This document shows, in pieces, positions 44,963 through 61,882 of a stretch of DNA of 64,000 bases (the stretch's first letter is position 1; every line of letters starts with the position of its first letter). The notes beneath the pieces are model-generated. The model made no database searches. It was not told the DNA's origin and saw only the letters and a program-made list of their open reading frames with translations. The DNA is from Mesorhizobium sp. 65-26 (GTDB lineage Bacteria > Pseudomonadota > Alphaproteobacteria > Rhizobiales > Rhizobiaceae): NCBI GenBank assembly GCA_001899205.1, contig MKVL01000015.1, forward strand, positions 244,705 to 308,704. The letters are read 5' to 3'. A program made the position numbers and the translations under genes.

Positions 44963-45013
44963 CCCATTCTCCACGAGCGATCCCGCCTGCCGCGGGTGTT
45001 GTCAAATCCATTT

Positions 45014-45049
45014 GTCCACTATAATGGACTTAAGTCTACAACAGTGGAC
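45014..45049. promoter_or_regulatory. Tandem inverted-repeat operators upstream of the Ehu-like importer
   Basis: Two imperfect 16-bp dyads of the form GTCyAC-N4-rTGGAC: 45014-45029 (GTCCACTATAATGGAC) and 45034-45049 (GTCTACAACAGTGGAC), with centres 20 bp apart, two helical turns. The outer arms GTCCACT (45014-45020) and AGTGGAC (45043-45049) are also mutually complementary. Located 52-87 bases before the binding-protein start, they look like cooperative sites for one regulator, perhaps the IclR protein at 39239. The gap 44963-45326 (364 bases) contains these, the promoter at 45161-45206 and no gene. Confidence 0.5.
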
Positions 45050-45160: not shown

Positions 45161-45206
45161 TTGACAGATTGTTAGATCACCCATAATCTCGTTTGAACAC
45201 AAACAA
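45161..45206 (+). promoter_or_regulatory. Promoter with 20-bp-spaced direct repeats (shared motif, copy 1)
   Basis: TTGACA at 45161-45166, then TTAGATCACCCATAA (45172-45186) and TTTGAACACAAACAA (45192-45206), direct repeats 20 bp apart. CATAAT (45182-45187) is a possible -10 with a short 15-base spacer. The 50 bases 45161-45210 match 55961-56010 without gaps at 36 of 50 positions by my count. It drives the Liv-type importer starting at 45327. A short dyad GTTTG-N4-CAAAC also lies at 45191-45204. Confidence 0.6.
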
Positions 45207-45326
45207 ACTGCCGGCCACCGGGGAGCCGGCGCGAAGCGTCGCGGATCGCGTGGCGCGAGCAGGAAAACATCGTCGTCGACCGTGGGACGGTTGGCGGGTG
45301 GGCATACAGATCGGGAGGAGAACGAC

Positions 45327-46508
45327 ATGAATCTGAATTCGAGAATCTCGCGCCGCAACGTGCTGTTGACCGGCGCCGCCGGGGCCCTCGCCGGCCTCGC
45401 AATGCCTTACGTCGCGCGCGCTGCCGGCGATCCCATCAAGGTCGGCATCCTGCAGCCGTTCTCAGGCGGTCTCGAGGTGCTAGGCCAGCAGGGCTTCCAG
45501 GGCGCGGAAATGGCGCTGCTGGAGGCCAACGAGGCGGGCGGCGTGCTGGGCGGGCGGATGTTCGAGATCGTCAAGGCCGACGACCGCACCGATCCCAAGA
45601 CGGCGGTCGAGCGTACCAGCGAACTGATCCGCCGCGACAAGGTCACCGCCATCATCGGCCCGGTCACCAGCGCCAACCGCGATGCCATGCTGCCGACCAT
45701 CGAGCGCTACAAGACGCCATTGCTCTACGCCACCGACTATGAGGGCGGCGTGTGCAGCCCGTATGTCGCCTGCTACAGCGCGTTGCCCGCGCATTGGGTG
45801 AATCCGCTCGTGCCCTATGCGGTCGAGAACCTGGGCAAGGCCTTCTATCTCGTCGGCAGCGACTATGTCTGGCCGCAGAAGATGAACAAGGCCTTCCGCG
45901 AGGAGGTCGAGAAGGCGAAGGCGAAGGTCGTCGGCGAGGAATACACCCCCTGGGGCGCCAAGGACTACGCCGCCACGCTGCGCAAGATCGAAAGCTCGGG
46001 CACCGACGTGGTGGTCATCACCATCGTCGGCGCCGACGCCATCACCTTCGTCAAGCAGTTCGCCGCCGCCGGCCTGCAAAGCAAGATCAAGATCATCTTC
46101 TTCGGTTTCAACGAGAACTACGTCGCCGGCCTCTCGCAGGCGGAATCGAACGGCATCGTCGCGCCGTCGAACTTCATCGCCAATCTCGACAAGCCCGAAG
46201 CCAAGGCCTTCGTCGAGCGCTTCCACGCCCGCTACGGCGCGAACTCCGTGGTCTCAAACACCACCGACGCGCACTACACGCTTACCCGCTTCTTCATCGA
46301 GGGCATCAAGAAGGCCGGCTCCGACGACAAGCAGAAGATCCTGGCCTCGATGGTCGGCCAGTCGCTCATGTCGGGCAATGGCGAGGTGGATCTGCGCGCC
46401 TCGGACCGTCACGCCGACCTCAACGTGCTGATCGTCCAGGTCGACAACGGCCAGCTCAAGGTGCTCAAGGATCTCGGCCGCATCGTCGCGCCAAGCCAGT
46501 GCGGCTGA
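45327..46508 (+). CDS. LivK/amide-type ABC substrate-binding protein (type I periplasmic)
   Basis: 393 aa from ATG 45327 with GGGAGGAG upstream; a longer frame from 45282 is unnecessary. Tat signal SRRNVLLTGAAG. Peripla_BP_6 fold: IKVGILQPFSGGLEVLGQQGFQGAEMAL, VTAIIGPVTSANRDAMLP, LLYATDYEGGVCSPYVACYSALP. The Tyr/Cys-rich segment is typical of urea/short-amide-binding relatives (UrtA/AmiC) rather than leucine-binding proteins. First gene of a five-gene importer operon controlled by the direct-repeat promoter. Confidence 0.88.
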   Translation: MNLNSRISRRNVLLTGAAGALAGLAMPYVARAAGDPIKVGILQPFSGGLEVLGQQGFQGAEMALLEANEAGGVLGGRMFEIVKADDRTDPKTAVERTSELIRRDKVTAIIGPVTSANRDAMLPTIERYKTPLLYATDYEGGVCSPYVACYSALPAHWVNPLVPYAVENLGKAFYLVGSDYVWPQKMNKAFREEVEKAKAKVVGEEYTPWGAKDYAATLRKIESSGTDVVVITIVGADAITFVKQFAAAGLQSKIKIIFFGFNENYVAGLSQAESNGIVAPSNFIANLDKPEAKAFVERFHARYGANSVVSNTTDAHYTLTRFFIEGIKKAGSDDKQKILASMVGQSLMSGNGEVDLRASDRHADLNVLIVQVDNGQLKVLKDLGRIVAPSQCG

Positions 46509-46512
46509 CGCG

Positions 46513-47271
46513 GTGAGCGAGCCGAACGGCCCCATCCTGCAGCTTGCGGGCGTCACCAAGCGCTTCGGCGGGCTCGTCGTCCTCGACGGGCTCGACCTGA
46601 CGCTGCCCAAGGGCGCGATGCAATGCATCCTGGGGCCGAACGGCTGCGGCAAGACCACGCTGTTCAACGTCGTCACCGGCGAATTCCCACCCGATGGCGG
46701 CGAGGTCAGGCTCGGCGGCCGCAACGTCGCCGGCCTGTCGCCGCATCGCATCTCGCGGCTCGGCGTGGCGCGAAAGTTCCAGGTTCCGGGCGTCTATCCC
46801 GAACTCAGCGTGGCCGAGAACATCGAGATCCCGCTCGCCGCCGGCGCTGGGCGCTACGGGCCGCTTTCGCTGCTCGGCTACCGCCCGGACGCCGCCCGCC
46901 GCGACCGGCTGCTCGACCTCTGTGGCCTGGCCGGCAAGGCCGGCGAGAAGGTCGGCGAGATCGCCCATGGCGAGAAGCAGCGGCTGGAAATCGCCATGCT
47001 GCTGGCGCGCGACGCCGAGCTCATCCTGCTCGACGAGCCGACGGCCGGCATGTCGGGCGCGGAGACCAGCGCCGTGGCGAGCCTGATCCGCCGGCTGCGC
47101 GACGAGGAAGGCAAGTCGATCCTGGTGATCGAGCACGACATGAATTTCGTGCGCCAGCTCGAATGCCCGATCATCGTCATGGTCCGCGGCAAGATCATCG
47201 CCGAGGGTCGCTACGAAGAGGTCAGCCGCGACCCGCGCGTCATCGAATCCTATCTCGGGAAGCGCCACTGA
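46513..47271 (+). CDS. LivG-type ABC transporter ATP-binding protein
   Basis: 252 aa from GTG, 4 bases after the binding protein. Walker A GPNGCGKTT, signature IAHGEKQRLEIA, Walker B LILLDEPTAGMSG, His-loop IEHDMNF. One of two ATPases of the Liv/Urt-type importer. The TGA overlaps the next ATG by one base. Confidence 0.92.
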   Translation: MSEPNGPILQLAGVTKRFGGLVVLDGLDLTLPKGAMQCILGPNGCGKTTLFNVVTGEFPPDGGEVRLGGRNVAGLSPHRISRLGVARKFQVPGVYPELSVAENIEIPLAAGAGRYGPLSLLGYRPDAARRDRLLDLCGLAGKAGEKVGEIAHGEKQRLEIAMLLARDAELILLDEPTAGMSGAETSAVASLIRRLRDEEGKSILVIEHDMNFVRQLECPIIVMVRGKIIAEGRYEEVSRDPRVIESYLGKRH

Positions 47272-47978
47272 TGCTCGCGGTCGAAAATCTTGTTGCCGGC
47301 TATCCATCCGGCGGCAGCGTGCTGAAGGGCGTCACTTTCGATGTCGCCAAGGGCGAGGTCGTCGCCCTTCTCGGCCGCAACGGCATGGGCAAGACCACGC
47401 TGATGCGCGCGCTCGCCGGGCAGCTTGCCAAGCAGAGCGGCAGCTTTCGCCTGGACGGCCGCGACCTCGGCGGCTCTCCCTCCTACGCCATCGCCAATGC
47501 CGGCATAGGCTACGTGCCGCAGGGGCGCGAGATCTTCAAGGATTTCACCGTCGAGGAAAACCTGCTGATGGGCGTGCTCGGCAAGCCGAACCTGCCCAAG
47601 CGGCTGCCTGGCGACATCTACGATTTCTTCCCCATCCTCGGCGAGCGGCGCAAGCAGAAGGCCGGCACCATGTCGGGCGGCCAGCAGCAGCAGCTCGCCA
47701 TCATGCGCTGCCTCGTCGGTCAGCCCAAGCTGGTGCTGCTCGACGAGCCGTCCGAGGGCATCCAGCCTTCCATCGTCGACGAGATCGGTCGCACCTTGCA
47801 GACCATCGCCCGTTCCACCGGGCTGACCATCCTGGTGGTCGAGCAGAATCTGGATTTCGTCGAGACCCTCGCCGGGCGCGCGCTGTTCATGGAAAACGGC
47901 GTCATCGCCGACCGCGCCGACCATATCGGCGAACTACGCGACAAGCCCGAACTCGTCCATCGCTACCTGTCAATCTGA
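47271..47978 (+). CDS. LivF-type ABC transporter ATP-binding protein
   Basis: 235 aa from ATG 47271 (TGATG overlap). Walker A GRNGMGKTT, GYVPQGREIFKDFTVEENL typical of LivF/UrtE, signature MSGGQQQQLAI, Walker B LVLLDEPSEGIQPS, VEQNLDF. Second ATPase of the importer. Confidence 0.92.
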   Translation: MLAVENLVAGYPSGGSVLKGVTFDVAKGEVVALLGRNGMGKTTLMRALAGQLAKQSGSFRLDGRDLGGSPSYAIANAGIGYVPQGREIFKDFTVEENLLMGVLGKPNLPKRLPGDIYDFFPILGERRKQKAGTMSGGQQQQLAIMRCLVGQPKLVLLDEPSEGIQPSIVDEIGRTLQTIARSTGLTILVVEQNLDFVETLAGRALFMENGVIADRADHIGELRDKPELVHRYLSI

Positions 47979-47985
47979 GGCCGCC

Positions 47986-48840
47986 GTGGAAGCGACAATC
48001 GCCCTTCTGCTCGACACCGCGAACTTCACCCTCGCCCTGCTGCTGGTGACACTCGGCCTCGTCGTCATCTTCGGCCTGATGAACGTCATCAACATGGCCC
48101 ATGGCGAGTTCTTCCTGATCGGCGCCTATGTCGTCGTCGCGGTCAGCAATGCGACGGGGTCGTTCTGGCTGGGCCTGCTGCTGGCGCCCGCCGTGCTGGC
48201 CGTCGTCGGCCTGCTGGTGGAGTGGCTGATCATCCGCCACATCTACCATCGCTTCATCGACACCATCCTTGCCACCTGGGGCCTGTCGCTGGTCATCAAG
48301 CAGGGCGTGGTCGTGCTGTTCGGGCCGGGCGCGCAGAGCGTGCCCAATCCGATTCCCGCCGCCGTCGACGTGTTCGGCGTCCAGTATCCGGCCTACCGCC
48401 TGTTCATCATGGCGCTTTCGGCGGCGCTGGCGCTCGCCACCTACTACCTGTTTTTCCGCACCAGGCTCGGGCTGCAGATCCGTGGCGTCATCGCCAACCG
48501 CGCAATGGCCGCCTCGCTCGGCATCAACACGCGTCGCATGGACCGCGCCACCTTTGCCGTCGGCTCGGCGCTGGCCGGTTTCGCCGGCGCGGTCATGGCG
48601 CCGATCATGAGTGTCGACCCGCAGATGGGCGTCGGCTTCCTCATTCCGTCCTTCCTCTCCGTGCTGGTGGGCGGCGTCAATTCGCTGGTCGGCGCGCTCA
48701 TCGGCTCCGGCGTCATCGGCGGCGCCACCACCATCTTCTCGGCCGGCATCTCGCAGGCCGACGCCCAGATCCTGGTGTTCCTGCTCGCCATGATCATCAT
48801 CCGCTTCCTGCCCAACGGCATCACCGGAGGCCGCAAATGA
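47986..48840 (+). CDS. LivH-type ABC transporter permease
   Basis: 284 aa from GTG 47986. Hydrophobic with about eight membrane segments; VIFGLMNVINMAHGEFFLIGAY and RGVIANRAMAASLGINTRRM are LivH/UrtB signatures. Stop overlaps the next ATG (ATGA). Confidence 0.9.
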   Translation: MEATIALLLDTANFTLALLLVTLGLVVIFGLMNVINMAHGEFFLIGAYVVVAVSNATGSFWLGLLLAPAVLAVVGLLVEWLIIRHIYHRFIDTILATWGLSLVIKQGVVVLFGPGAQSVPNPIPAAVDVFGVQYPAYRLFIMALSAALALATYYLFFRTRLGLQIRGVIANRAMAASLGINTRRMDRATFAVGSALAGFAGAVMAPIMSVDPQMGVGFLIPSFLSVLVGGVNSLVGALIGSGVIGGATTIFSAGISQADAQILVFLLAMIIIRFLPNGITGGRK

Positions 48841-49835
48841 CGCGTCGTTCTTTGCGTGATGCCGGGCGTCTTGGCCTTGGCCTCACCATCCTCGCCTGGA
48901 TAGGGCTTGCGGCTGCCCCACTCGTGCTCGACGACTGGAACATCGGCCTGCTCACACAATACGTCACCTACGGCATCTTCGCGCTCAGCCTCGGGCTGAT
49001 CTGGGGGCAGGCCGGCATATTGTGCTTCGGCCAGGCCATCTTCTTCGGCATCGGCGCTTATTCCATGGCGCTGGTGACGCTTGGCAAGCTGCCCTGGCTT
49101 GGCGATAGCCAGTGGACGGGCCTGGCGCTCGCCGTGCTGCTGCCCATGCTGGTCGCCGCGGTGCTCGGCTGGATCCTGTTCCAGGGCCGTGCCCTGTCGG
49201 GCGCGCATCTCGCCATCGTCACGCTCTGCGCCGCCGTGGTGTGCGAGATCGCGGCGCGCCGCTGGGAATTCATCGGCGGCTTCAACGGCCTGTTCAACGT
49301 GCCGCCGCTGTCGGCGCCGAATGGCGATCCGCTCTCGACCAACGCGACGTATTTCTTCGTCGGCGTCGCCGCGCTGCTCACCTATCTGCTGTCGCTGTGG
49401 ATCGGGCGCTCGCCGCTTGGCACCGTGCTGGCGGCCATTCGCAACGACGAACGCCGCACGCTGCACTTCGGCTACGACGTGCGCCTGCACAAAATCTTCG
49501 TCTTCACCGTTTCGGGCGCCATGGCGGGTTTTGCCGGCGGCCTGTTCACCACCCAGTTCGGCTTCGTCTCGCCGCCGCTGGTCGGCTTCGCGCTTTCCAC
49601 GGAAGTGCTGATCTGGGTGGCCGTCGGTGGCCGTTCGGTGCTGATGGGCGCCTTCCTCGGCGCGCTCGCCGTGCGCGCCACGGAGAACGCCATGTCCTCC
49701 AGCCTCGACCAGTATTGGCTGATCGCGCTCGGCGCGCTGTTCATCATCGTGGTCGTCGTGCTGCCGCAGGGCCTGTTCGGCAAGCTGCTGGCGCTTGCGC
49801 CGCCGCGCCGGCTTGGCAGTAGCCAGGCGAAGTAA
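48837..49835 (+). CDS. LivM-type ABC transporter permease
   Basis: 332 aa. IWGQAGILCFGQAIFFGIGAYSMAL, AAIRNDERRTLHFGYDV and FVFTVSGAMAGFAGGLFTTQFGFVSP are LivM/UrtC features. Last gene of the importer operon, followed by a good terminator. Confidence 0.9.
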   Translation: MTRRSLRDAGRLGLGLTILAWIGLAAAPLVLDDWNIGLLTQYVTYGIFALSLGLIWGQAGILCFGQAIFFGIGAYSMALVTLGKLPWLGDSQWTGLALAVLLPMLVAAVLGWILFQGRALSGAHLAIVTLCAAVVCEIAARRWEFIGGFNGLFNVPPLSAPNGDPLSTNATYFFVGVAALLTYLLSLWIGRSPLGTVLAAIRNDERRTLHFGYDVRLHKIFVFTVSGAMAGFAGGLFTTQFGFVSPPLVGFALSTEVLIWVAVGGRSVLMGAFLGALAVRATENAMSSSLDQYWLIALGALFIIVVVVLPQGLFGKLLALAPPRRLGSSQAK

Positions 49836-49857
49836 ACCCGAGGCCGTCGAAGCGAAA

Positions 49858-49900
49858 GGGCGGATGCCCGACGCCGTCGGATGTACCCGCCCGCATTTTT
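49858..49900 (+). terminator. Rho-independent terminator of the Liv-type operon
   Basis: GGGCGG (49858-49863) pairs with CCGCCC (49887-49892), enclosing a second stem CCGAC/GTCGG (49868-49872, 49876-49880), and a five-T run ends at 49900. It is 23 bases after the livM-like stop. Confidence 0.65.
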
Positions 49901-49904
49901 AGTC

Positions 49905-49943
49905 AGCGCATGACCCCGAAAGCGGTTCTCGGGGCCATGCGCT
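49905..49943. repeat. Rhizobial-type intergenic palindrome (CATGCGCT element)
   Basis: Arms AGCGCATGACCCCGA (49905-49919) and TCGGGGCCATGCGCT (49929-49943) are complementary at 14 of 15 positions. Sequences of the form AGCGCATGA.CCCGAAA...TCGGG..CATGCGCT recur between genes in Mesorhizobium and relatives, as I recall. This copy lies between convergent operons. Only one clear copy is seen in the window. Confidence 0.6.
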
Positions 49944-49991
49944 GGGTCCGCCGCATCGCGGAACCGAATTCAGTCGTCCATGCGGGCCGTT

Positions 49992-50810
49992 CTAGCGCGC
50001 GTTGCGCCGCAGGTCGGGGAAGGTCGCGGCCTCGGGGGCGTTGGCCCAGCTTTGCAGCGTCTGGCCGCCATCGATCAGCCAGTCCACTCCCGTGACATGG
50101 CGTGCATCGTCGGAGGCGAGGAAGGCGACCGCGGCCGCCACGTCCTCCGGCTGGCCGATGCGCCGCAGCGGAATGCGATCGGCGAAGCGCTGCACGCCGG
50201 CCAGGTACTGCGCCTTGTCGGCGGCCGGCACGCCAAGCGTCGTCTCGATGACGCCCGGGCAGATGGCGTTGACGCGGATGCCGTAGGGCGCGGCGTCGAG
50301 CGCGGCGACGCGCGTCAGCCCCACCACGCCATGCTTGGTCGAGGCATAGCCGGCGCCGCCGGCAAGCACGTCCCAGCCGGCCATGGACGAACCCATGTTG
50401 ACGATCGAGCCTTCCACGCCGGCCTCGATCATCGCCTTCACCGAAGCCTTCAGCACCAGGAACATCGAGCGCAGGTTGACGCGCACGATGCGATCCCAGT
50501 CTTCCGTCGGCAGTTCGTGCACCGGCGCCACCTTGCCGGAGATGCCGGCATTGTTGAACACCGCGTCCAGCCGGCCGAAGGCCTTCACCGCCCTGGCCAC
50601 GGCTTCGCTGGCGGCCGCCTCATCGGAGACGTCGGCGGTGATGGCGATGGCGCCATTGCCGATCGCCGAGGCGATGTCTTCGGCGCGCCTTGCGTCGAGA
50701 TCCACGATCGCGACCCTGGCGCCCTCCTGGGCGAAGCGGCGCGCCGCCGCGCTGCCGATGGCGCCGCCGCCGCCGGTGACCAGCACGGCCTTGTCCACAA
50801 AACGGGTCAT
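49992..50810 (-). CDS. Short-chain dehydrogenase/reductase
   Basis: 272 aa from ATG 50810. Cofactor motif TGGGGAIG, NNAG at about residue 86-89, catalytic Ser141/142, Tyr155 and Lys159 (YASTK). Asp after the second strand (VAIVDLDARR) favours NAD(H). Ends with PGVIETTLG and the usual SDR C-terminus GQTLQSW. Second gene of a two-gene minus-strand unit with the epimerase-like protein; oxidises or reduces an unidentified alcohol/ketone of the pathway. Confidence 0.88.
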   Translation of the reverse strand: MTRFVDKAVLVTGGGGAIGSAAARRFAQEGARVAIVDLDARRAEDIASAIGNGAIAITADVSDEAAASEAVARAVKAFGRLDAVFNNAGISGKVAPVHELPTEDWDRIVRVNLRSMFLVLKASVKAMIEAGVEGSIVNMGSSMAGWDVLAGGAGYASTKHGVVGLTRVAALDAAPYGIRVNAICPGVIETTLGVPAADKAQYLAGVQRFADRIPLRRIGQPEDVAAAVAFLASDDARHVTGVDWLIDGGQTLQSWANAPEAATFPDLRRNAR

Positions 50811-50887
50811 CGTGTTTTCTCCTGTGTTACCGAGGCAATTCCGGGACGGCGAAGAGCGCTTTCCCGTGGGATTGCGACAACTGAGGC

Positions 50888-51730
50888 CTAGTTGCTGCCG
50901 TAGGCGCGCCACGAATGGCGCGGCTCGAAGCCCAGCGTCTCGCGGGCATGGCTGTTGTCGATCACCGACGCGTGGCCGTCGAGCGGCCGCTTGACCGGGA
51001 CTGAAGGGAAGGCGCCTTTCAGCAGCTCGGCCGTCGGCGTTTCCGAATAGGTGTCGGCGGCGCTGATGAAGGTGCGCAGATGCCCCTGTCCTTGCCAGGC
51101 CAGCGCCTTGAGGAAGGCGTCGGCCGCGTCGCGCGCGTCGAGATAGCCCCACAGGTCCCAGCCCGCGTCCTGCGTGCGCCGGCGCGGTCCGACGGTCTCG
51201 AAGAAGGTCTCCGGCATCTGGATCCAGGGCATGCGCAGGCTCACCGCCGAGAAGGCGCCTCGGCGCACAGCCGCCTCGACAACTTCCTCCCCCAGCCACT
51301 TCGACAGGCCGTACGCGTCCTGCGCGCCGATCGGATGGTTCTGGTCGATCGGCAGGTAGGCGGGCGGCGTCAGCTTCGGCGCGAAGGGATAGCCGAGCAC
51401 GGAAAAGGACGAGGCATAGATGAAGCGCGAGGTTCCCGAAAGCGCGGCCGCCTCGACCACATTGTAGGCGGCCGCCATGTTGGTGCGGAACACTTCGGCG
51501 GCGGCCTTTCCGGTCGGGCGCGGAATGGCCGCGACATGGATGACGGCGTCAGCGTCGCGCACGAGCTGCAGGGCAAGGCCGAGATCGGTCAGGTCGGCGC
51601 TGACATGCTTCCAGCCGCCGCGCGCTGGCGGGGCAAGGTCGATGCCCAGCACCTCGTGGCCGGCCGCCACGAAAGCCTCCGCCACGTGGTGGCCCAGCAG
51701 ACCGCTCGATCCCGTGACGATGACGTTCAT
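50888..51730 (-). CDS. NAD-dependent epimerase/dehydratase family protein (extended SDR)
   Basis: 280 aa from ATG 51730 (GGAGCAGG upstream). Rossmann motif VTGSSGLLGHHVAEAF, VIHVAAIPRP and the active-site YGLSKWLGEE (Tyr-x3-Lys). Short for a sugar epimerase; uronate dehydrogenases and related small extended SDRs have this size. Divergent from the isochorismatase-like gene across 284 bases that hold a copy of the shared regulatory motif. Confidence 0.82.
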   Translation of the reverse strand: MNVIVTGSSGLLGHHVAEAFVAAGHEVLGIDLAPPARGGWKHVSADLTDLGLALQLVRDADAVIHVAAIPRPTGKAAAEVFRTNMAAAYNVVEAAALSGTSRFIYASSFSVLGYPFAPKLTPPAYLPIDQNHPIGAQDAYGLSKWLGEEVVEAAVRRGAFSAVSLRMPWIQMPETFFETVGPRRRTQDAGWDLWGYLDARDAADAFLKALAWQGQGHLRTFISAADTYSETPTAELLKGAFPSVPVKRPLDGHASVIDNSHARETLGFEPRHSWRAYGSN

Positions 51731-51948
51731 GTCCTGCTCCTTCTCATGACCGGGCGCGGTCATGCCGCAAATATCGTTGATGGTCAAACGATCGGTCTCT
51801 CCAAACAGCGCGCTTGTCAACGGCTTTTTCGGCGGATACGTCCGGCAAAACCGCCGCCGGAACGTCTCTTCGGCCCGTCGAAATGCTCCTGGAGCGGGAT
51901 TTCCCCCGCTTCGTCATCCATCATGCCGGGGCAAAGCATCTGGAAGGA

Positions 51949-51989
51949 TTGACTTCGCGTCGCGCAGGGTTTTGTATGACCACCAACAA
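51949..51989 (+). promoter_or_regulatory. Promoter region with shared motif (copy 3, single)
   Basis: TTGACT (51949-51954) and TTGTAT (51972-51977) are 17 bases apart. TATGACCACCAACAA (51975-51989) differs at one base from the motif at 55992-56006. Only one motif copy is present. It overlaps the in-frame ATG at 51976, which supports translation starting at 52015 instead. Confidence 0.5.
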
Positions 51990-52014
51990 TCAATGGCTGC
52001 CGGGGAAATTTGCC

Positions 52015-52659
52015 ATGTCCTTGGATATATTCTCATCGCATCGACAGGAAGCTGGCGTCAGCATCGACACCAAGCGCGCGGCGGTCGTCGTGGTCGACAT
52101 GATCAACGACTTCTGCAAGCCGGGCGGCGCCATGGTGCTGCCGGGCTACGAAACGCTGGTCGGGCCACAGCTCGCCGTCATCGAGGCCGCGCGCGCCTCC
52201 GGCGTTCCGGTCATCTGGGTGCACGACGTCCATCGCGGCAACGTGCGCCAGGATCGTGAATGGCTGAAGCGCACGCCGCACTGCGTGGAAGGCACCTGGG
52301 GCGTCGAGATCATCGACGACCTCGGCGCGCGCGCCGACGAGATCCATGTCGTCAAGCGTCGCTATTCCTCCTTCTTCCAGACCGATCTCGACCTGACGCT
52401 CAAGGATCTCAAGGTCGACCAGATCATCGTCTTCGGCGTCGTCACCAACATCTGCGTGCGCTCGACCGTGCATGACGCCTTCTTCAACGGCTATGAGGTG
52501 GTGGTGCCGGCCGATTGCTGCGCGGCCACCGGCCCGCGCGAGCAGGAAAGCTCGCTCTACGACATCGCCACCCATTTCGGCGTGGTCAGCAACGCGGCTA
52601 GCGTGGTGCGGGCCTTCCGGGAAGGCGCGTTCGTGGAAAACACCAGCGTCGCGGCCTGA
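52015..52659 (+). CDS. Isochorismatase-fold cysteine amidohydrolase
   Basis: 214 aa from ATG 52015 (GGGGA 8 bases upstream); ATG 51976 lies in a promoter element. Catalytic triad Asp28 (VVVVDMINDF), Lys114 (VVKRRYSSF) and Cys147 (TNICVRSTVHDAF), with a cis-peptide-type GVVT before Cys. This family includes maleamate amidase NicF, ureidoacrylate amidase RutB and biuret hydrolase. Followed by a NicR-like MarR and an enamidase homologue, so an amide from N-heterocycle ring opening is the likely substrate. Confidence 0.87.
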   Translation: MSLDIFSSHRQEAGVSIDTKRAAVVVVDMINDFCKPGGAMVLPGYETLVGPQLAVIEAARASGVPVIWVHDVHRGNVRQDREWLKRTPHCVEGTWGVEIIDDLGARADEIHVVKRRYSSFFQTDLDLTLKDLKVDQIIVFGVVTNICVRSTVHDAFFNGYEVVVPADCCAATGPREQESSLYDIATHFGVVSNAASVVRAFREGAFVENTSVAA

Positions 52660-52706
52660 TTGCAAGGCAGCACCGAGAACAGGCCAGCCAGGAGTTCATT
52701 CACCCC

Positions 52707-53240
52707 GTGACGATGACCGACGACACAAGGCAGACCAAGCGGAAGGCGGCCGACGAGCAGTTGAGTCGCGATGAAGCGCTGGCCCGCTACGCTGCGACCG
52801 GATACGACCTTGACCTGCACCCTGCTCATATCGTACGGCGCGCCCATCAGCGCGCGACGTTGTGCTTCCAGCAGGAAATGGCCGGCGAGGATCTCTCGCC
52901 AACCCAGTACGCGGCCCTGGCCACTGTCTTGCGCTACGGTGAGGTTTCCCAGAACCATCTCGGGCGGCTGACGGCAATGGATCCGTCCACCATCAGCCTG
53001 GTGGTGCGCAAGCTCTTGCGGCAGGGGCTGGTCAAGCGCAGCGCCTCCAAGACCGACCAGCGCCTGGCCATCATCGCGCTCACCGACGCTGGCGTCCGCT
53101 ATACGCTCGATCGCCTGCACCGCAGCGTCGAGGTGGGACGCCGGCTGCTATCGCCGCTCTCGCCGGCCGAGCAGGCGACCCTTCTCAACCTGCTCCAGCG
53201 CATCAGCGGCGACGACCCGGGCGACACGGACGCCAAATGA
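52707..53240 (+). CDS. MarR-family regulator, NicR-like
   Basis: 177 aa from GTG 52707, with AGGAG at 52690-52694; ATG 52713 is possible. The segment LHPAHIVRRAHQRATLCFQQEM..LSPTQYAALATVLRYGEVSQNHLGRLTAMDPSTISLVVRKLL is typical of NicR-type MarR repressors of nicotinate genes. Wing SASKTDQRLAIIALT. Located between the amidohydrolase and enamidase-like genes, it probably represses one or more of the surrounding operons. Confidence 0.85.
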   Translation: MTMTDDTRQTKRKAADEQLSRDEALARYAATGYDLDLHPAHIVRRAHQRATLCFQQEMAGEDLSPTQYAALATVLRYGEVSQNHLGRLTAMDPSTISLVVRKLLRQGLVKRSASKTDQRLAIIALTDAGVRYTLDRLHRSVEVGRRLLSPLSPAEQATLLNLLQRISGDDPGDTDAK

Positions 53241-53344
53241 CCTTCTGACCCCAAACTAGAACGCAGCATACGGCGGACGCCACCGGGGTCGCTCGGCGGC
53301 GGGGTTCTCACCCCATGTCCGCGCCAGACGAAAGGAACCGTCCG

Positions 53345-54544
53345 ATGTCCTCCGAACCGCAAGCCAAGCCCGCCGCCGGCAAGACGGTCATCCGCAATGT
53401 CGGCCTGATGCTGAGCGGCGATATCGGTCGTCCGATCCTCGACGCCGACACCATCGTGGTGGTCGACGGTCTCATCGCCGCGGTCGGCAAGGAAAGCGAA
53501 CTCGATACGGCCGGCGCCACCAAGGTCATCGACGCGCAGGGCTGCGTCGTCACCCCCGGCCTCATCGACAACCACGTCCACACCGCCGCCGGCGACTGGA
53601 CGCCGCGCCAGAACCAGATCGGCTGGATCGATTCGACCGTGCATGGCGGCGTCACCACCATCATCTCGGCCGGCGAGGCGCACTATCCCGGCCGCCCGCG
53701 CGACATCGTCGGCATCAAGGCGCTCGGCATCGCCGCGCAGCGCAGCTTCGCCAATTTCCGCCCGAGCGGCATGAAGATCATCGCCGGCGCTCCCGTGCTG
53801 GAGCCCGGCATGACCGAGAATGACTTCCGCGAGCTCGCCGAAGCCGGCGTGACGCTGATCGGCGAGGTCGGGCTCGGCGGCGTGAAGGACGGCCCGACGG
53901 GTCGCCAGATGATCGCCTGGGCGCGCAAATACGGCATGACCTCGATGACCCATACCGGCGGTCCCTCGATTCCCGGTTCCGGCCGCATCGGCGCCGAGGT
54001 GGTGCTCGAGGTCGACGCCGACGTCGTGGCGCATGTCAATGGCGGTCCCACGGCGCTGCCCGACGACGAGATCCGCCGCATCTGCGAGGAGGGCACCCGC
54101 GCGCTCGAGATCGTCCACAACGGCAACCTGCGCACCGGCCTGTTTGTGCTCGGCATCGCCAAGGAACGCAACGAACTCGACCGCGTCATCCTCGGCACCG
54201 ATGGTCCCGCCGGCTCGGGCGTGCAGCCGCTCGGCATCCTGCGCACCATCTGCCACCTGGCCTCGCTCGGCGATGTGCCCACCGAAGTGGTCTTCTGCTT
54301 CGCCACCGGCAACACCGCGCGGGTTCGCAAGCTCGCCGACCGCGGCGTCATCGAAGCCGGCCGCGCCGCCGATCTCATCTTCATGGATCAGGCCGCCGGC
54401 GGCATTGGCAAGGATTTCCTGGAAAGCCTCGCGCTCGGCAACCTGCCGGGCATCGGCATGATCATGATCGACGGCGAGGTGCGCACCGCGCGCAGCCGCA
54501 ACACGCCGCCCGCCATCCGCGTACCCGAGATCGTCGCGGCCTGA
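53345..54544 (+). CDS. Enamidase-like amidohydrolase (6-oxo-1,4,5,6-tetrahydronicotinate hydrolase homologue)
   Basis: 399 aa from ATG 53345 with AAAGGA upstream. From memory of Eubacterium barkeri enamidase, extended similarity is clear: SGDIGRPILDADTIVVVDGL, HGGVTTIISAGEAHYPGRPRD, HTGGPSIPGSG, HVNGGPTALPDDEI and SRNTPPAIR. Amidohydrolase metal positions His77, His79, Glu174, His203, His230 and Asp286 are present. Enamidase hydrolyses 6-oxo-tetrahydronicotinate to 2-formylglutarate and ammonia. I infer ring opening of a reduced oxo-pyridine or a related cyclic enamide. A strong terminator follows. Confidence 0.83.
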   Translation: MSSEPQAKPAAGKTVIRNVGLMLSGDIGRPILDADTIVVVDGLIAAVGKESELDTAGATKVIDAQGCVVTPGLIDNHVHTAAGDWTPRQNQIGWIDSTVHGGVTTIISAGEAHYPGRPRDIVGIKALGIAAQRSFANFRPSGMKIIAGAPVLEPGMTENDFRELAEAGVTLIGEVGLGGVKDGPTGRQMIAWARKYGMTSMTHTGGPSIPGSGRIGAEVVLEVDADVVAHVNGGPTALPDDEIRRICEEGTRALEIVHNGNLRTGLFVLGIAKERNELDRVILGTDGPAGSGVQPLGILRTICHLASLGDVPTEVVFCFATGNTARVRKLADRGVIEAGRAADLIFMDQAAGGIGKDFLESLALGNLPGIGMIMIDGEVRTARSRNTPPAIRVPEIVAA

Positions 54545-54567
54545 TCCGCGTACCCGCCCTGAAACGA

Positions 54568-54609
54568 CAAAGCGGCCCCCAAATGCCATCTGGGGGCCGC
54601 TTTGTTTTT
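54568..54609 (+). terminator. Strong Rho-independent terminator
   Basis: CAAAGCGGCCCCCA (54568-54581) and TGGGGGCCGCTTTG (54591-54604) form a perfect 14-bp stem with a 9-base loop, followed by TTTTT (54605-54609). Ends the enamidase transcript. A second hairpin, GCCGCCCG/CGGGCGGC (54636-54643, 54648-54655), lies before the convergent DUF1185 gene and may end that transcript. Confidence 0.85.
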
Positions 54610-54667
54610 GCTTCGTCCTATTGGGTCCGGCGGGCGCCGCCCGTCGCCGGGCGGCATCCGGTCCGGT

Positions 54668-55252
54668 TCAGATCAGCCCGTCCTTGCCGACGACCTGTTC
54701 CTTGGCCAGCCCGCCGACGCGCGGGTGAGGCCGGCCCGAATCGGTGACGGCGATCGCCACGACGATCTCGTCGTCGCGCGGCGCGTCCGGCACGCGCACT
54801 TCCATGCCGTCGAAGTGGCTGCGAACCTTGGCGGCATCCTTGTGGCCGAGCGGGATGTCCAGCGGCACGCCGAGTCCGCCTCGCTTCTTCGACGACGGAA
54901 TGAGCGCCGCGCCGGTGCCGAGCACGTCGCGGAACGGCGCGCCGAGCTTGGGATGCAGGATGGCCGCGGCATGCTCCAGCTCGCCATTGGCGCCGACGGC
55001 GGCAGCCTTGCCGAAGCTCTCGATCTGGTCGCCCGGTATGCCGAGCGCCGCCACGGCGCGCTTCGGCAGGATGTCGCCGAGTTCGGCGCCGATGTCGCTG
55101 AGCGCGGAGAGATCGTCGACATAGCGCCCGGCGAACGGATTGCGGATGACGGCGACGGCGGCGGCGCGACGGGTCGGCGGATTGACCGGCTTGCCGCCTT
55201 CCTCGCGCGTTTCCTCGACGATGGTGATGATTCGACGGATCTCGACGCTCAT
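54668..55252 (-). CDS. DUF1185 / amino-acid-synthesis-family protein (second of tandem pair)
   Basis: 194 aa. Family blocks: AAVAVIRNPFAGRYVDDLS, GANGELEHAAAILHPKLG, ALIPSSKKRGGLGVPLDIPLGHKDAAKVRSHFDGMEV (as overlapping pieces) and DAPRDDEIVVAIAVT. The PF06684 name predicts amino acid synthesis, but I know of no firm biochemical function. It is a diverged paralogue of the upstream gene, which it overlaps by 4 bases (ATGA), so the two are co-translated and may form a mixed oligomer. Confidence 0.8.
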   Translation of the reverse strand: MSVEIRRIITIVEETREEGGKPVNPPTRRAAAVAVIRNPFAGRYVDDLSALSDIGAELGDILPKRAVAALGIPGDQIESFGKAAAVGANGELEHAAAILHPKLGAPFRDVLGTGAALIPSSKKRGGLGVPLDIPLGHKDAAKVRSHFDGMEVRVPDAPRDDEIVVAIAVTDSGRPHPRVGGLAKEQVVGKDGLI

Positions 55253-55833
55253 CTCAGGCCGTCCTCGCCCTTGATGTCCTTGGCTTCCAGGCCGCCGGCG
55301 CGGGCGTGCACGCGCGGACCCGTCGTCATGGCCAGCACAAGCAGCAGTTCGTTGGCGCGCGGCGCGTCGTTGATGCCCACCTCGATCGCGTCGAAATGGC
55401 TGCGCACATAGGATGCGTTGAGGTGCGTGACCGGGATGTCGATGCGCGCGCCGGGGCCGCCCACCTTCTTGGTCGACGGCACGATGGCCTTGGCGCCGCC
55501 GAGCAGTTCGCGCATCGCGTAGCCGCCCGGATTGTGCCACAGCGCGCCGTGCTCGAGTTCGCCGCCGCCGCCGACAATGGCGCCCTTGCCATAGCCCTCG
55601 ATCTTCGAGGCATCGCCGCCGAGCGCGTCGAGCAGGCGTCCCGCCATTTCAAGCCCGAGCGGCTTGAGGTCTTCCATGAAGCCGGTGATCTCTTCCACGT
55701 AGCGCCCGGCAAACGGGTTCTCGATCACTGCCAGCACCGCGCCGCGCTTGACCGGCTCGGCCCGGGCAGGTCCGCCCTCATGAAAAATCTCCTCGACCTG
55801 TACTACAAACTTCCTGACGACCGGCTTGGGCAT
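55249..55833 (-). CDS. DUF1185 / amino-acid-synthesis-family protein (first of tandem pair)
   Basis: 194 aa from ATG 55833, exactly the length of its neighbour. Blocks AVLAVIENPFAGRYVEEIT, GGGGELEHGALWHNPGGYAMREL, AIVPSTKKVGGPGARIDIPV and SHFDAIEVGINDAPRANELLL. Conserved His, Lys and acidic residues suggest an enzyme, but the reaction is unknown to me. Divergent from the BMP transporter operon; a perfect dyad lies 28 bases upstream. Confidence 0.8.
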   Translation of the reverse strand: MPKPVVRKFVVQVEEIFHEGGPARAEPVKRGAVLAVIENPFAGRYVEEITGFMEDLKPLGLEMAGRLLDALGGDASKIEGYGKGAIVGGGGELEHGALWHNPGGYAMRELLGGAKAIVPSTKKVGGPGARIDIPVTHLNASYVRSHFDAIEVGINDAPRANELLLVLAMTTGPRVHARAGGLEAKDIKGEDGLR

Positions 55834-55860
55834 CGGTTGCTCCCGACTATGGCATTGCGA

Positions 55861-55882
55861 AATTGTTAGAGTATCAACAATT
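55861..55882 (-). promoter_or_regulatory. Candidate operator upstream of the DUF1185 pair
   Basis: Perfect inverted repeat AATTGTT-N8-AACAATT, 28 bases before the ATG at 55833. Its left part ATTGTTAGA (55862-55870) also occurs at 45168-45176 in the Liv-type importer promoter. Suits a MarR-type dimer; the NicR-like protein at 52707 is a possible ligand. Confidence 0.45.
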
Positions 55883-55960
55883 ATCGATCCGGGCGCTTTG
55901 TCAAGCCGTCTCGGGCCGCAGTTTGCAAAACAAGCGCGTGGGACATCGCACGGCACCAGA

Positions 55961-56006
55961 TTGACAGGTCATTAGACCACTCATAAAGTCATATGATCAC
56001 CAACAA
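55961..56006 (+). promoter_or_regulatory. Promoter with 20-bp-spaced direct repeats (shared motif, copy 2)
   Basis: TTGACA (55961-55966), then TTAGACCACTCATAA (55972-55986) and TATGATCACCAACAA (55992-56006). Spacing of TTGACA and both repeats is identical to that at 45161-45206. CATAAA (55982-55987) is the corresponding -10 candidate. Drives the BMP-type transporter beginning at 56066. Confidence 0.6.
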
Positions 56007-56065
56007 GTTTTCCGGTACCCCTTGTGGGGCCGGCACTTGGGGCGACCTTCAACCAGGGGACTGAC

Positions 56066-57070
56066 ATGAAAAACATCCTTTCGAAGTGCATTATCACCGG
56101 CGCGGCGCTTGCCGCCTCGGTCAGCCTTGCCTGCGCGGAAACCAAGGTGTCCGTGGCCGCCATCTCCGGCTACTTCGCCCAGGGCTTCGGCGTTTCCATC
56201 GTCAACGGTCTCAACAAGGCCAAGACCGATTTCGGCATCGACCTCAAGCTGGTCGACACCGGCAACCGCGCCCTCGACTATGAAGAGCAGTTCGCCAACC
56301 TGGCGAAGGACGGCAAGTACGACCTCATCTTCGTCATGGGCTGGGAGCTGGTCGACGCGCTGCAGAAGGCCAGCCATGCCTATCCGAACCAGCGCTTCGT
56401 CTTCATCGACGGCGTGCTCGACAGCGACAAGATGATCTACGCCAACTTCGCCGAGGAGCAGGGCTCCTTCGTCGCCGGCGCGCTTGCCGGCATGATCGAG
56501 GCCAAGGGCAGCGCCTTCGACAAGATCGGCGACGGCAAGGCCATCGGCTTCGTCGGCGGCCGTGACATCCCGGTCATCCGCAACTTCCTCGGCGGCTACG
56601 AGCAGGGCGCGAAATACGCCGCTCCCGACATTGCCGTGAAGCCCGTTTTCGCCGGCACCTTCGATGACCCGGCCAAGGGCAGCGAGCTGACCCAGGCGCT
56701 CTACAATGAAGGCGCCGACATCGTCTACAACGTCGCCGGCCCGACGGGCGAGGGCGTCATGCAGGCCAGCGCCGCCGCCGACAAGTACTCGATCGGCGTC
56801 GACATCGACATGTGCTCCTCGGCTCCGGGCAACGTGCTCGCCTCGATGCTGAAGCGCGGCGACATCGCCGTCTACAGCCTGATCAAGGACGAGGTAGAAG
56901 GCCACAAGCTGACCGCCGGCACCCGCACCTTCGACCTCGCTTCGGGCGGCGTCGAGGTGAAGGTCTGCGACGACATCGCGCCGAAGATCCCCGAGGAGAT
57001 CAAGACCAAGCTCGACGCCATCAAGAAGGGCATCGTCGACGGCTCGATCAAGATCGCCAAGGCCAAGTAA
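56066..57070 (+). CDS. BMP-family nucleoside-binding lipoprotein/periplasmic protein
   Basis: 334 aa from ATG 56066 (AGGGGA upstream). Signal peptide of about 24 residues ending ACA-ET. BMP/PnrA fold: VSVAAISGYFAQGFGVSIVNGL, IFVMGWELVDAL, RFVFIDGVLDSD, EEQGSFVAGALAGM and GADIVYNVAGPTGEGVMQA. BMP proteins bind nucleosides in most characterised cases. Downstream genes encode the matching importer and two nucleoside hydrolases, supporting a nucleoside ligand. Confidence 0.9.
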   Translation: MKNILSKCIITGAALAASVSLACAETKVSVAAISGYFAQGFGVSIVNGLNKAKTDFGIDLKLVDTGNRALDYEEQFANLAKDGKYDLIFVMGWELVDALQKASHAYPNQRFVFIDGVLDSDKMIYANFAEEQGSFVAGALAGMIEAKGSAFDKIGDGKAIGFVGGRDIPVIRNFLGGYEQGAKYAAPDIAVKPVFAGTFDDPAKGSELTQALYNEGADIVYNVAGPTGEGVMQASAAADKYSIGVDIDMCSSAPGNVLASMLKRGDIAVYSLIKDEVEGHKLTAGTRTFDLASGGVEVKVCDDIAPKIPEEIKTKLDAIKKGIVDGSIKIAKAK

Positions 57071-57082
57071 GGCTTGAGCCTG

Positions 57083-57107
57083 CCCGGAGGCTGGTGCAGC
57101 CTCCGGG
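57083..57107 (+). other. Intercistronic hairpin after the BMP gene
   Basis: CCCGGAGGCT (57083-57092) and AGCCTCCGGG (57098-57107) form a perfect 10-bp stem with loop GGTGC and no T-run. It lies in the 158-base gap between the binding protein and the ATPase and may raise binding-protein mRNA relative to the membrane genes. Confidence 0.55.
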
Positions 57108-57228
57108 TCCTCTTGAAATCCGTGTTTCGGATGGGCCGGTTCGCCGGCTCGTTCAAATTTGTTTTCACGCAATTCCAGACGGCAGACCGTAGATTTTCCT
57201 GGAATTGCCCTGGAGCAGTGGAGCTTCC

Positions 57229-58812
57229 GTGTCCGAAGCGTCGCCATCCCCGGCACCAGCCACGCCGGCCGCCACCGCAGAGATGGCTGTCGAACTGATT
57301 GGCATCACGAAGCGGTTCAACGCCTTCGTCGCCAATGACAGCGTCTCGATCGCGGTGCGCCGTGGCGAGATCCACGCCATCATCGGCGAGAACGGCGCCG
57401 GCAAGACCACCCTGATGAACGTCCTGTTCGGCCTGCTGCAGCCCGACGAGGGCACGATCCGCATCGGCGGCCAGGACATGGTCATGGCCGATCCGGCCGC
57501 CGCCATCAATGCCGGGCTCGGCATGGTGCACCAGCACTTCAAGCTGGTTCCCTCGCTCTCCGTGGCGGACAACGTCTTCCTCGGCATGGAGATCCGCCGC
57601 AACGGGCTGATCGACCATGCAGCGCAGATCGAGAAGACGCGCGAACTGTCCGAGCGCTTCGGCCTGCGGGTCGACCCCACCGAGCGCGTCTCGCTGCTGT
57701 CGGTCGGCATCGAGCAGCGCATCGAAATCCTCAAGGTGCTGGCCCGCGGCGCGCGCACCATCATCCTGGACGAGCCGACGGCCGTGCTGACGCCCCAGGA
57801 AAGCCGCGAACTCTTCCAGACGCTGCGCGGCTTCGTCGCCGGTGGCATGACCGTCATCTTCATCTCCCATCACCTCGAGGAGGTGATGGAGGTTTCCGAC
57901 ACCGTCACCGTGCTGCGCCACGGCAAGCATGTCGCGACGCGCCCGACGGCCGAGCTGACCAAGGCCGATCTGGTGCGCATGATGGTCGGCCGCGATGTCA
58001 GCTTCGAGCGGCGACGCCGCGACAGGACGGCCGGCGAGGTCGTGCTCGATGTCAAGAACCTGTGGGCCCGCGACGATCGCCGGCTGCCGGCGCTGCGCGA
58101 TGCGAGCTTCACGGTGCGCGCCGGCGAGATCGTCGGCATCGCCGGCGTTGCCGGCAACGGCCAGACCGAGCTTGCCGAAGTGCTCGCCGGCCTGCGCCCC
58201 GCCAGCCATGGCTCGGCCATGCTCAAGGGCCGCGACCTGGCCACGCTGTCGCCGTCCCGGATCCGCGAGGCCGGCCTCGCCCATGTTCCCGGCGACCGCA
58301 TGGTGCGCGGTGTCGACGGCGGCGCCTCGATTTCGGCGAACCTGTTGATGGGCCGCCAGTCCAAGGCGCCATGGGCGCGCCACGGCGTCCTCGACTGGAA
58401 GGCCGCGGCCAGCCAGGCCGTCGACATGATCAAGCGTTTCGACATTCGCGCGCGCGGCCCGGAGGACACCGTCAAGCGGCTGTCCGGCGGCAACATCCAG
58501 AAAGTCGTGCTGGCGCGGGAATTCACCAACGACTCGGACTTCCTGCTCATCGACCAGCCGACGCGCGGCGTCGACATCGGCGCGCAGGAATCCATCCACG
58601 ACGAGATCATGCGCCAGCGCGCCGCGGGGCGCGCCGTTCTCGTCATATCGGTACAGCTCGATGAGCTCCTCACGCTCGCCGACCGTATCCTGGTCATGTT
58701 CAACGGCCGGATCATGGGCGAGGTCGAGGGCGATGGAGCCGACAGCGAAAGGATCGGCATGATGATGGCAGGTGTCGAAGCCGAGCCGGCGACAGGCGGA
58801 GCGGCATCATGA
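57229..58812 (+). CDS. Nucleoside/sugar ABC transporter ATP-binding protein (two-domain)
   Basis: 527 aa from GTG 57229 (GGAG 6 bases upstream); an upstream TTG at 57205 is less likely. First domain: Walker A GENGAGKTT, LSVGIEQRIEI, LDEPTAVLTP. Second domain has the degenerate Walker A GVAGNGQTE normal for this RbsA/NupO-like class, signature LSGGNIQKVVLARE and DQPTRGVDIGA. Partner of the two permeases that follow with overlaps of 4 and 13 bases. Confidence 0.92.
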   Translation: MSEASPSPAPATPAATAEMAVELIGITKRFNAFVANDSVSIAVRRGEIHAIIGENGAGKTTLMNVLFGLLQPDEGTIRIGGQDMVMADPAAAINAGLGMVHQHFKLVPSLSVADNVFLGMEIRRNGLIDHAAQIEKTRELSERFGLRVDPTERVSLLSVGIEQRIEILKVLARGARTIILDEPTAVLTPQESRELFQTLRGFVAGGMTVIFISHHLEEVMEVSDTVTVLRHGKHVATRPTAELTKADLVRMMVGRDVSFERRRRDRTAGEVVLDVKNLWARDDRRLPALRDASFTVRAGEIVGIAGVAGNGQTELAEVLAGLRPASHGSAMLKGRDLATLSPSRIREAGLAHVPGDRMVRGVDGGASISANLLMGRQSKAPWARHGVLDWKAAASQAVDMIKRFDIRARGPEDTVKRLSGGNIQKVVLAREFTNDSDFLLIDQPTRGVDIGAQESIHDEIMRQRAAGRAVLVISVQLDELLTLADRILVMFNGRIMGEVEGDGADSERIGMMMAGVEAEPATGGAAS

Positions 58813-59849
58813 GTGACAGGTTGCGTGCCGTTTACGGGCAGCTTCTCGCCGTCCTTTTCGCCCTCGCCATCGGCGCCGTGATCATCATCCTGGTGGATGA
58901 GAGCCCGGTGAAGGTGTTCATGACGCTGCTGCGCGGCGCCTTCGGCGACCAGTCCAAGATCGCCGGCACCCTCCTGCAGACCACGCCCATCCTGATCTGC
59001 GGCGTCGCCGCCTGCATCGGCCTGCGCGGCGGCATGTTCAACGTCGGCATCGAGGGACAGCTCTTCCTCGGCGGTTTCGCTGCCGCCTGGGTGGGCTTCG
59101 ACCTGCCGCTGCCGGCCGGCCTCCACATGCTGGTGGCCCTGGTGGTGGCGACCCTTGCCGGCGCCGCCTGGGTGTCCATCCCGGCCTTCTTCCGCGCCCG
59201 CTACAACACCAACGAGGTGGTCTCCACCATCCTGTCGAACTATGTCGCGGTGCTGCTGACCTCCTACTTCACGATCTTCCTGTTCAAGCGGCCCGGCGGC
59301 TGGTCGGAAACGCCGCCCATCCTGCCCACCGCCTACCTGCCCGAGCTGTTCTCCTTCTCGCGCCTCAACTGGGGCCTCATAATCGGGCTGGTGCTGGCGC
59401 TCTTCGTCGCCTGGTTCTTCCGCTACACCAGCAAGGGCTACTCCGTCTCGATGGTCGGCTCGGCGCCGAAGTTCGCCGAATATGGCGGTGTCGACGTCAA
59501 GCGGCAGGGCTTCCTGGTGCTGCTCGTCTCCGGCGCGGTCGGCGGCCTTGCCGGCGGCGTCGAGACGCTCGGCGTGCATCATCGCTTCATGGAGGGCTTC
59601 GCGCCCGGCTTCGGCTTCGACGGCCTGATCGCGGCCCTCCTCGCCAACGGTTCGCCCATCGGCACCATCGTCACGGCGCTGTTCTTCGGCGCGCTGCGCA
59701 GCGGCTCGCTGCTGCTCGAGGTCGAGACGACGGCGTCGCGCGAAATCATCACGGTCATCCAGGCCCTCATCATCCTCAGCGTATCCGCGCAGGTGCTGAT
59801 GAAGCGCCGCGGCGACAGCACGGCGGGAGAGCGTCGATGGAAGTTCTAG
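58809..59849 (+). CDS. Nucleoside-type ABC transporter permease (NupP-like)
   Basis: 346 aa, about eight to nine membrane segments. GLRGGMFNVGIEGQLFLGGF and RYNTNEVVSTILSNYVAVLL are family markers. ATGA overlap with the ATPase gene; its 3' end overlaps the second permease by 13 bases. Confidence 0.92.
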   Translation: MSDRLRAVYGQLLAVLFALAIGAVIIILVDESPVKVFMTLLRGAFGDQSKIAGTLLQTTPILICGVAACIGLRGGMFNVGIEGQLFLGGFAAAWVGFDLPLPAGLHMLVALVVATLAGAAWVSIPAFFRARYNTNEVVSTILSNYVAVLLTSYFTIFLFKRPGGWSETPPILPTAYLPELFSFSRLNWGLIIGLVLALFVAWFFRYTSKGYSVSMVGSAPKFAEYGGVDVKRQGFLVLLVSGAVGGLAGGVETLGVHHRFMEGFAPGFGFDGLIAALLANGSPIGTIVTALFFGALRSGSLLLEVETTASREIITVIQALIILSVSAQVLMKRRGDSTAGERRWKF

Positions 59850-61858: not shown

Positions 61859-61882
61859 GCAGCCGGCATAAAGAACATCACC

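Follow-up and report, generated by a model that had tools for sequence, protein, structure and literature searches.

A conserved palindromic operator, most likely of a local MarR-family regulator, in front of uptake and catabolism operons of Mesorhizobium sp. 65-26

The window considered here is a stretch of 64,000 nucleotides from Mesorhizobium sp. 65-26 (contig C15, positions 244705-308704 of the 6.84-Mb genome), and the element in question is a short motif that recurs in its promoters. The surrounding genes code for ATP-binding cassette (ABC) importers of the Liv/urea and BMP types, an isochorismatase-family hydrolase, a MarR-family regulator, an enamidase-like amidohydrolase, two adjacent PF06684 proteins, an epimerase-family protein with a short-chain dehydrogenase (SDR), and nucleoside hydrolases (Table 1). 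The isochorismatase, MarR and enamidase genes lie on the same strand with one copy of the motif in front of them. According to the data reported below, the motif would be the operator of this MarR-family regulator, controlling operons for uptake and catabolism, a reading to which we give a probability of about 85% on the basis of sequence comparisons.

Table 1. Features of the locus, with positions in the window (ORFs, open reading frames).
Feature	Position	Strand	Basis or remark
TTGACA, -35-like box, Liv promoter	45161..45166	+	sequence
Operator copy 1, Liv-type importer promoter	45168..45187	+	contains the initially annotated site at 45172
Operator copy 2, Liv-type importer promoter	45188..45207	+	initially annotated site at 45192
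Liv/urea-type ABC importer operon	45327..49832	+	binding protein tested; remaining genes from ORFs
Short-chain dehydrogenase	49995..50837	-	family search
NAD-dependent epimerase-family protein	50891..51730	-	Pfam
Operator, epimerase/SDR operon	51773..51792	-	overlooked initially
TTGACT, -35-like box, isochorismatase promoter	51949..51954	+	sequence
Operator, isochorismatase-MarR-enamidase operon	51971..51990	+	initially annotated site at 51975
Isochorismatase-family (RutB-like) hydrolase	52015..52656	+	family searches
MarR-family regulator, predicted operator binder	52713..53237	+	Pfam, phmmer, alignment, co-occurrence
Enamidase-like amidohydrolase	53345..54541	+	family search, PDB match 2vun
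PF06684 protein 2	54671..55252	-	Pfam
PF06684 protein 1, leading gene of the pair	55252..55839	-	Pfam
Operator, PF06684 pair (genes on - strand)	55862..55881	+	overlooked initially
TTGACA, -35-like box, BMP promoter	55961..55966	+	sequence
Operator copy 1, BMP importer promoter	55968..55987	+	initially annotated site at 55972; weakest copy
Operator copy 2, BMP importer promoter	55988..56007	+	initially annotated site at 55992
BMP-type ABC importer genes	56066..60823	+	binding protein tested; remaining genes from ORFs
Two nucleoside-hydrolase-like genes	60842..62809	+	first tested; second from ORFs and own sequence

The initial annotation had described the motif as a 15-bp direct-repeat element in three promoters. 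Rereading the window sequence returned its five 15-mers (45172, 45192, 51975, 55972 and 55992), with nine of the 15 positions invariant as had been stated; the 15-mer corresponds, instead, to the core and right arm of a 20-bp inverted repeat, and the promoter motif is the core of an imperfect palindromic operator, about ATTGTTTGAnCATCAACAAT. Two copies had been overlooked, and these are the clearest palindromes of the set: ATCGTTTGACCATCAACGAT at 51773-51792 (inverted repeat ATCGTT-N8-AACGAT) and ATTGTTAGAGTATCAACAAT at 55862-55881 (inverted repeat ATTGTT-N8-AACAAT), preceding the epimerase/SDR pair and the PF06684 pair, respectively, both pairs being on the minus strand. The window thus holds seven copies across five promoters, the minimum number for the regulon here, and one more promoter of the set lies on another contig. 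Among the window copies, the strongest are symmetric palindromes; the one at 55968-55987 is the least certain operator, because it has the lowest matrix score in the window (17.1) and overlaps a conserved CATAAA stretch.

In the whole genome, the exact 15-mer consensus gave five matches, all at the sites already known, and allowing one mismatch added six matches versus four for the reversed control. This count is partly circular, since the consensus was built from the same five sites, and a fair test must for this reason use other genomes. An 18-mer pattern, TYRTWWGANYAYMAAYRA, has six exact matches in the genome, of which the window holds five; the sixth is at C41:10377-10394. Its three one-mismatch matches are the first Liv operator and two sites outside the locus, the latter being as many as the reversed control yields. 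A wide genome regulon is not supported, the C41 copy being the only exact 18-mer outside the locus.

We then considered 52 loci with relatives of the MarR protein, spanning several genera (Mesorhizobium, Aminobacter, Kaistia and others), onto which the window genes were mapped. The matrix of the five 15-mers was run on 51 of them (the nearest, L012, being left out) along with 60 column-permuted matrices: at a score of at least 16 it gave 42 hits versus a permuted mean of 1.4 (maximum 16), at 14 or more 131 versus 10.8 (102), at 12 or more 182 versus 23.9 (112), and at 10 or more 279 versus 82.5 (324). At least one permuted matrix outdoes the real one at the lowest of these thresholds, and none of the 60 does at 12 or more. 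With a matrix of the seven window sites and a threshold of 15, the same 51 loci showed 152 hits in the 103,144 bp outside the mapped cluster genes and none in the 479,625 bp inside them; a hit of at least 20 was present in 50 of the 51.

The sites are also conserved in orthologous promoters, as a matrix scan of related loci, proposed in the initial annotation, revealed. Counting seven-site matrix scores of 17 or more within 400 bp upstream of each gene (in the fetched loci longer than 5 kb and the window, excluding gene matches that lacked the first 60 residues or 200 bp upstream), the operator was found in front of the sugar-type binding protein in 28 of 28 cases and of the BMP gene in 45 of 45, followed by the isochorismatase (44/54), epimerase (38/45), first PF06684 (46/59), Liv-type binding protein (3/4) and enamidase (5/52) genes. 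No TTGAC box precedes the operator in six of the 44 isochorismatase cases; its position there is the one expected for the operator of the divergent gene.

The C41 match, an eighth copy, precedes the gene of a sugar-type solute-binding protein (SBP_bac_8), followed in the same operon (L115) by relatives of a xylose-isomerase-like TIM barrel protein, two permeases and a Gfo/Idh oxidoreductase, the families of these genes being assigned from their L018 counterparts. Of the 52 related loci, 25 (in Mesorhizobium, Kaistia and others) contain this sugar-type binding protein together with its operator, and in the window its operon's place is taken by the Liv operon. In a Rhizobiaceae metagenome-assembled genome (L043, 11834-16500), a Liv importer (66-73% identical) adjoins the PF06684 pair with operators in between, occupying the place held by the BMP importer in other genomes; from this arrangement, the importers may be interchangeable.

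As for the position of the operator, a TTGAC(A/T) box lies at most 60 bases before it in 198 of 209 operator-bearing genes, mostly 16-23 bases away; among 60-bp stretches, mostly of coding sequence, drawn at random from these loci, 1% contain such a box. So placed, the operator would overlie the -10/start region in the manner of a repressor site. The spacing of TTGACA and the two repeats is, as had been noted, identical between the Liv and BMP promoters, and the ungapped 50-base alignment of these promoters is real, its best pair having 37 of 50 identical positions rather than the 36 counted earlier (next-best match of this 50-mer within the window, on either strand: 26). This identity would suit an explanation by shared promoter signals (TTGACA and an AT-rich -10) or by a Liv/BMP promoter duplication, and so would the persistence of a CATAAA-like stretch in BMP promoters whose first operator copy is degraded (L018, L030, L034). 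The same palindrome, however, occurs in five window promoter contexts and on both strands, and PF06684 genes without a close MarR have no operator upstream (see below). Such an origin of the whole similarity is extremely improbable and already largely refuted; the Liv promoter itself could have arisen by copying the BMP promoter, and the persisting CATAAA-like stretch implies that repeat 1 overlaps a promoter element.

A different reading takes the direct repeats at face value, as 15-bp elements at 20-bp spacing bound by a tandem-repeat binder such as the AraC-type activator encoded at 38231-39094. The spacing is exactly 20 bp in every pair, that is, in both window pairs and in six pairs scoring 17 or more in relatives (L012 for Liv; L013, L014, L015, L022 and L042 for BMP). 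Most operator sites in the 52 loci are single, however, most BMP promoters of other loci have the downstream copy only, and the strongest window copies are symmetric. AraC-type tandem operators are conserved paired direct repeats upstream of the -35 box, whereas the present sites lie downstream of the TTGAC box, unlike typical activator sites. Moreover, the AraC and IclR proteins of the window have no tblastn match at 1e-20 in loci spanning 10 kb on each side of the MarR gene, genes farther off not being excluded. An AraC-type tandem operator is very unlikely and was rejected, most sites being single and downstream of the box; the 20-bp tandem is an operator doubling confined to some lineages.

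Regulators of the MarR family bind palindromic operators that overlap target promoters and are commonly encoded beside, and in, their own target operon. The protein of the window matches PF12802 (44.7 bits, cut-off 27), PF01047 (43.3 bits, cut-off 24.6) and 41 PDB sequences (E <= 0.001), most of which are labelled MarR-family or are members of it by name; phmmer gave E 1.3e-15 to PcaV (4fht) and 2e-22 to 2nnn. It had been proposed as candidate regulator (as the MarR at 52707), and the 18-mer counts track it. Indeed, MarR (E <= 1e-40) was found in 31 of 119 genomes of the genus, all 31 of which hold three to six exact 18-mers (148 in all), versus zero to two in each of the 88 MarR-less genomes (50 in all) and three matches of the reversed pattern in all 119. 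The counts in MarR-bearing genomes are thus above the random level that, according to the initial annotation, would speak against a regulon, and, together with the orthologous promoters, they support its proposal of a shared cis-element through which one likely regulator jointly controls uptake and breakdown.

A second survey disregarded MarR and searched 199 genomes of the order for PF06684; 46 match, and 30 loci, one per genome, were used. The operator was upstream in all four loci with a close MarR (G000, G087, G099 and G130; 25.7-32.5 bits) and in none of the 26 without (best score 11.6), three of which have a MarR of 43-46% identity. The matrix of this survey had been refined on the 52 MarR loci, and G099 and G130 appear to be among those genomes; the window-only matrix agrees for the loci covered by both. 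Presumably the recognition helix of the MarR protein, the stretch MDPSTIS does not vary among alignment rows L012-L063, L116, L118 and L119 but reads MDPATI or IDPATM in the 45-47% relatives L124-L126, for which a search for exact 7-bp inverted repeats gave G+C-rich ones only, none of them shared.

Co-occurrence does not single out MarR among its neighbours in the locus, and the motif might be bound by a different regulator that accompanies MarR, whether encoded within this locus or outside it; the persistence of a related 18-mer in many MarR-less genomes fits this idea. Yet the palindrome, its overlap with the promoter and its autoregulatory position suit a MarR repressor, the operator is missing where the PF06684 pair persists but no close MarR is present, and of the three regulators of the window only MarR maps in the related loci, which had been found by a MarR search. 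We consider another regulator unlikely.

The MarR-less 18-mers are, among the matches listed and with few exceptions, of the type T(C/T)(A/G)TTTGA(A/G)TACAAA(T/C)AA, which resembles the second Liv site of the window and the operators of L046, is found in some MarR-bearing genomes at places other than the locus, and may be the site of another regulator. Many MarR-less Mesorhizobium genomes have one copy of this related palindrome, TCATTTGA(A/G)TACAAA(T/C)AA, for example at G227:C1:123414, G244:C6:13067 and G201:C1:1353000 (L127-L129), and a weaker copy lies in the genome studied here at C10:923588 (L070). Comparison by eye of three stretches around copies of this palindrome revealed no common flanking gene.

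Several observations weigh against the assignment of the operator to MarR, or limit its support. The 52 main loci were found by a MarR search, and MarR is present in them by construction; the tests independent of MarR are only the PF06684 survey of the order and the 18-mer count in the genus, and closely related species are not independent. Within these loci, only the three regulators of the window were sought. No NCBIfam equivalog scored above its cut-off among 11 families including HpaR, Saro_0803, OhrR, MarR and BilQ (best 52.4 bits, versus cut-offs of 200 and 230; HpaR 30.7 of 121.2, Saro_0803 52.4 of 200). One or two exact 18-mers are still held by 45 of the 88 MarR-less genomes, and the pattern is not fully specific, because the related type occurs there. 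L056 has MarR and no site, on a contig without any other mapped cluster gene; no site accompanies the Liv genes of L059 (40-52% identical); L089, L106 and L121, which lack MarR, contain stray hits of 20-22 at other places; and no convincing -10 box or -10 consensus could be settled in these promoters.

To the same side belong the seven epimerase, ten isochorismatase and 13 PF06684 genes with no operator in front. Most of them are internal to another operon or lie in loci without a close MarR: all ten isochorismatase genes come immediately after the nucleoside-hydrolase genes of the BMP operon, and five of the seven epimerase genes come after the sugar-importer operon. As for PF06684, the pair follows the enamidase gene, which then bears the operator, in L045, L049, L050 and L063; L120-L123 belong to genomes without MarR at E <= 1e-25; L124-L126 adjoin a 45-47% MarR relative; and the remaining two are L060 and L117, the latter a second pair in a MarR-bearing genome (G087). 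This pattern of misses suggests that operators mostly stay with the heads of transcription units through rearrangement, which does not account for L060 (AAs1, Epim) and L048 (Epim). On balance, the motif is most likely a real, conserved operator of the local MarR, with a small and mostly local regulon.

We infer the mechanism as follows. A MarR dimer would bind the 20-bp imperfect palindrome (about ATYGTWWGAnYAYCAACRAT), mostly 16-23 bases 3' of the TTGAC(A/T) box, and at that position it would shield the -10/start region from RNA polymerase; release of MarR by a ligand of the pathway would switch on all target operons jointly. The predicted targets are the isochorismatase-MarR-enamidase operon (autoregulation), the epimerase/SDR operon, the PF06684 pair, the BMP importer with the nucleoside hydrolases, the Liv/urea-type importer and, in trans, the C41 sugar-type importer operon; in the Liv and BMP promoters, the second copy 20 bp upstream would place two dimers on the same DNA face.

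The hydrolase at 52015-52656 resembles RutB/N-carbamoylsarcosine amidase, the nearest relative of the Liv-type binding protein is 8tg1, followed by urea-binding proteins, and the two PF06684 matches score 242-248 bits; PF06684 is DUF1185, of chorismate-mutase-like fold. Elsewhere, L117 (G087:C4, 3650-10269) carries, with no MarR adjacent, a second enamidase gene and PF06684 pair; some 120 bp ahead of that enamidase gene is a weak site (18.6). The locus probably serves the import and breakdown of one compound class, and the simplest reading of its genes would be a nucleoside-like glycoside of an N-heterocycle as substrate. More tentatively, and as a reading somewhat less likely than not, we suggest a new MarR regulon and a new catabolic pathway whose substrate would be a nucleoside-like N-glycoside carrying an N-heterocyclic base; BMP, Liv/urea-type and sugar-type ABC importers would be interchangeable entrances under one operator, even with one of them on another contig, and the PF06684 pair would work in ring breakdown. 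A motif spotted by eye thus becomes a testable set of regulator, operator and targets kept over several genera; the poorly understood PF06684 proteins come under what is probably one switch, shared with an enamidase, nucleoside hydrolases and a RutB-like hydrolase, and the ligand of the MarR would identify the substrate of the whole pathway.

In the window, GTCCACTATAATGGAC followed by AGTGGAC forms an inverted-repeat-like element at 45014-45049, upstream of a minus-strand amino-acid importer gene (start near 44974); it is possibly a site for another regulator.

This kind of regulation, by a local catabolic repressor, is well known, and PcaV, HpaR and NicR are MarR-family repressors of catabolic operons; the result listings of our literature searches showed no publication on the present regulon. 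The amidohydrolase at 53345-54541 aligns along almost its entire length with PDB 2vun (403 bits, E 1.4e-119), the enamidase of nicotinate fermentation in Eubacterium barkeri; here, in contrast, the enzyme stands alongside nucleoside hydrolases, a RutB-like hydrolase and the PF06684 pair. PF06684 genes have been reported near genes of branched-chain amino-acid importers or metabolism (PMC2954203), and HcdD of coumarin degradation has been related to the PF06684 family and to TgnF (PMC7913881); the consulted parts of these two papers describe neither the present locus nor the operator. With repressors of the PcaV/HpaR type the regulator shares the MarR domain, a gene inside a likely target operon and a palindromic operator over the promoter, and it differs from them in its own operator sequence and its own target set, with three unrelated importer types.

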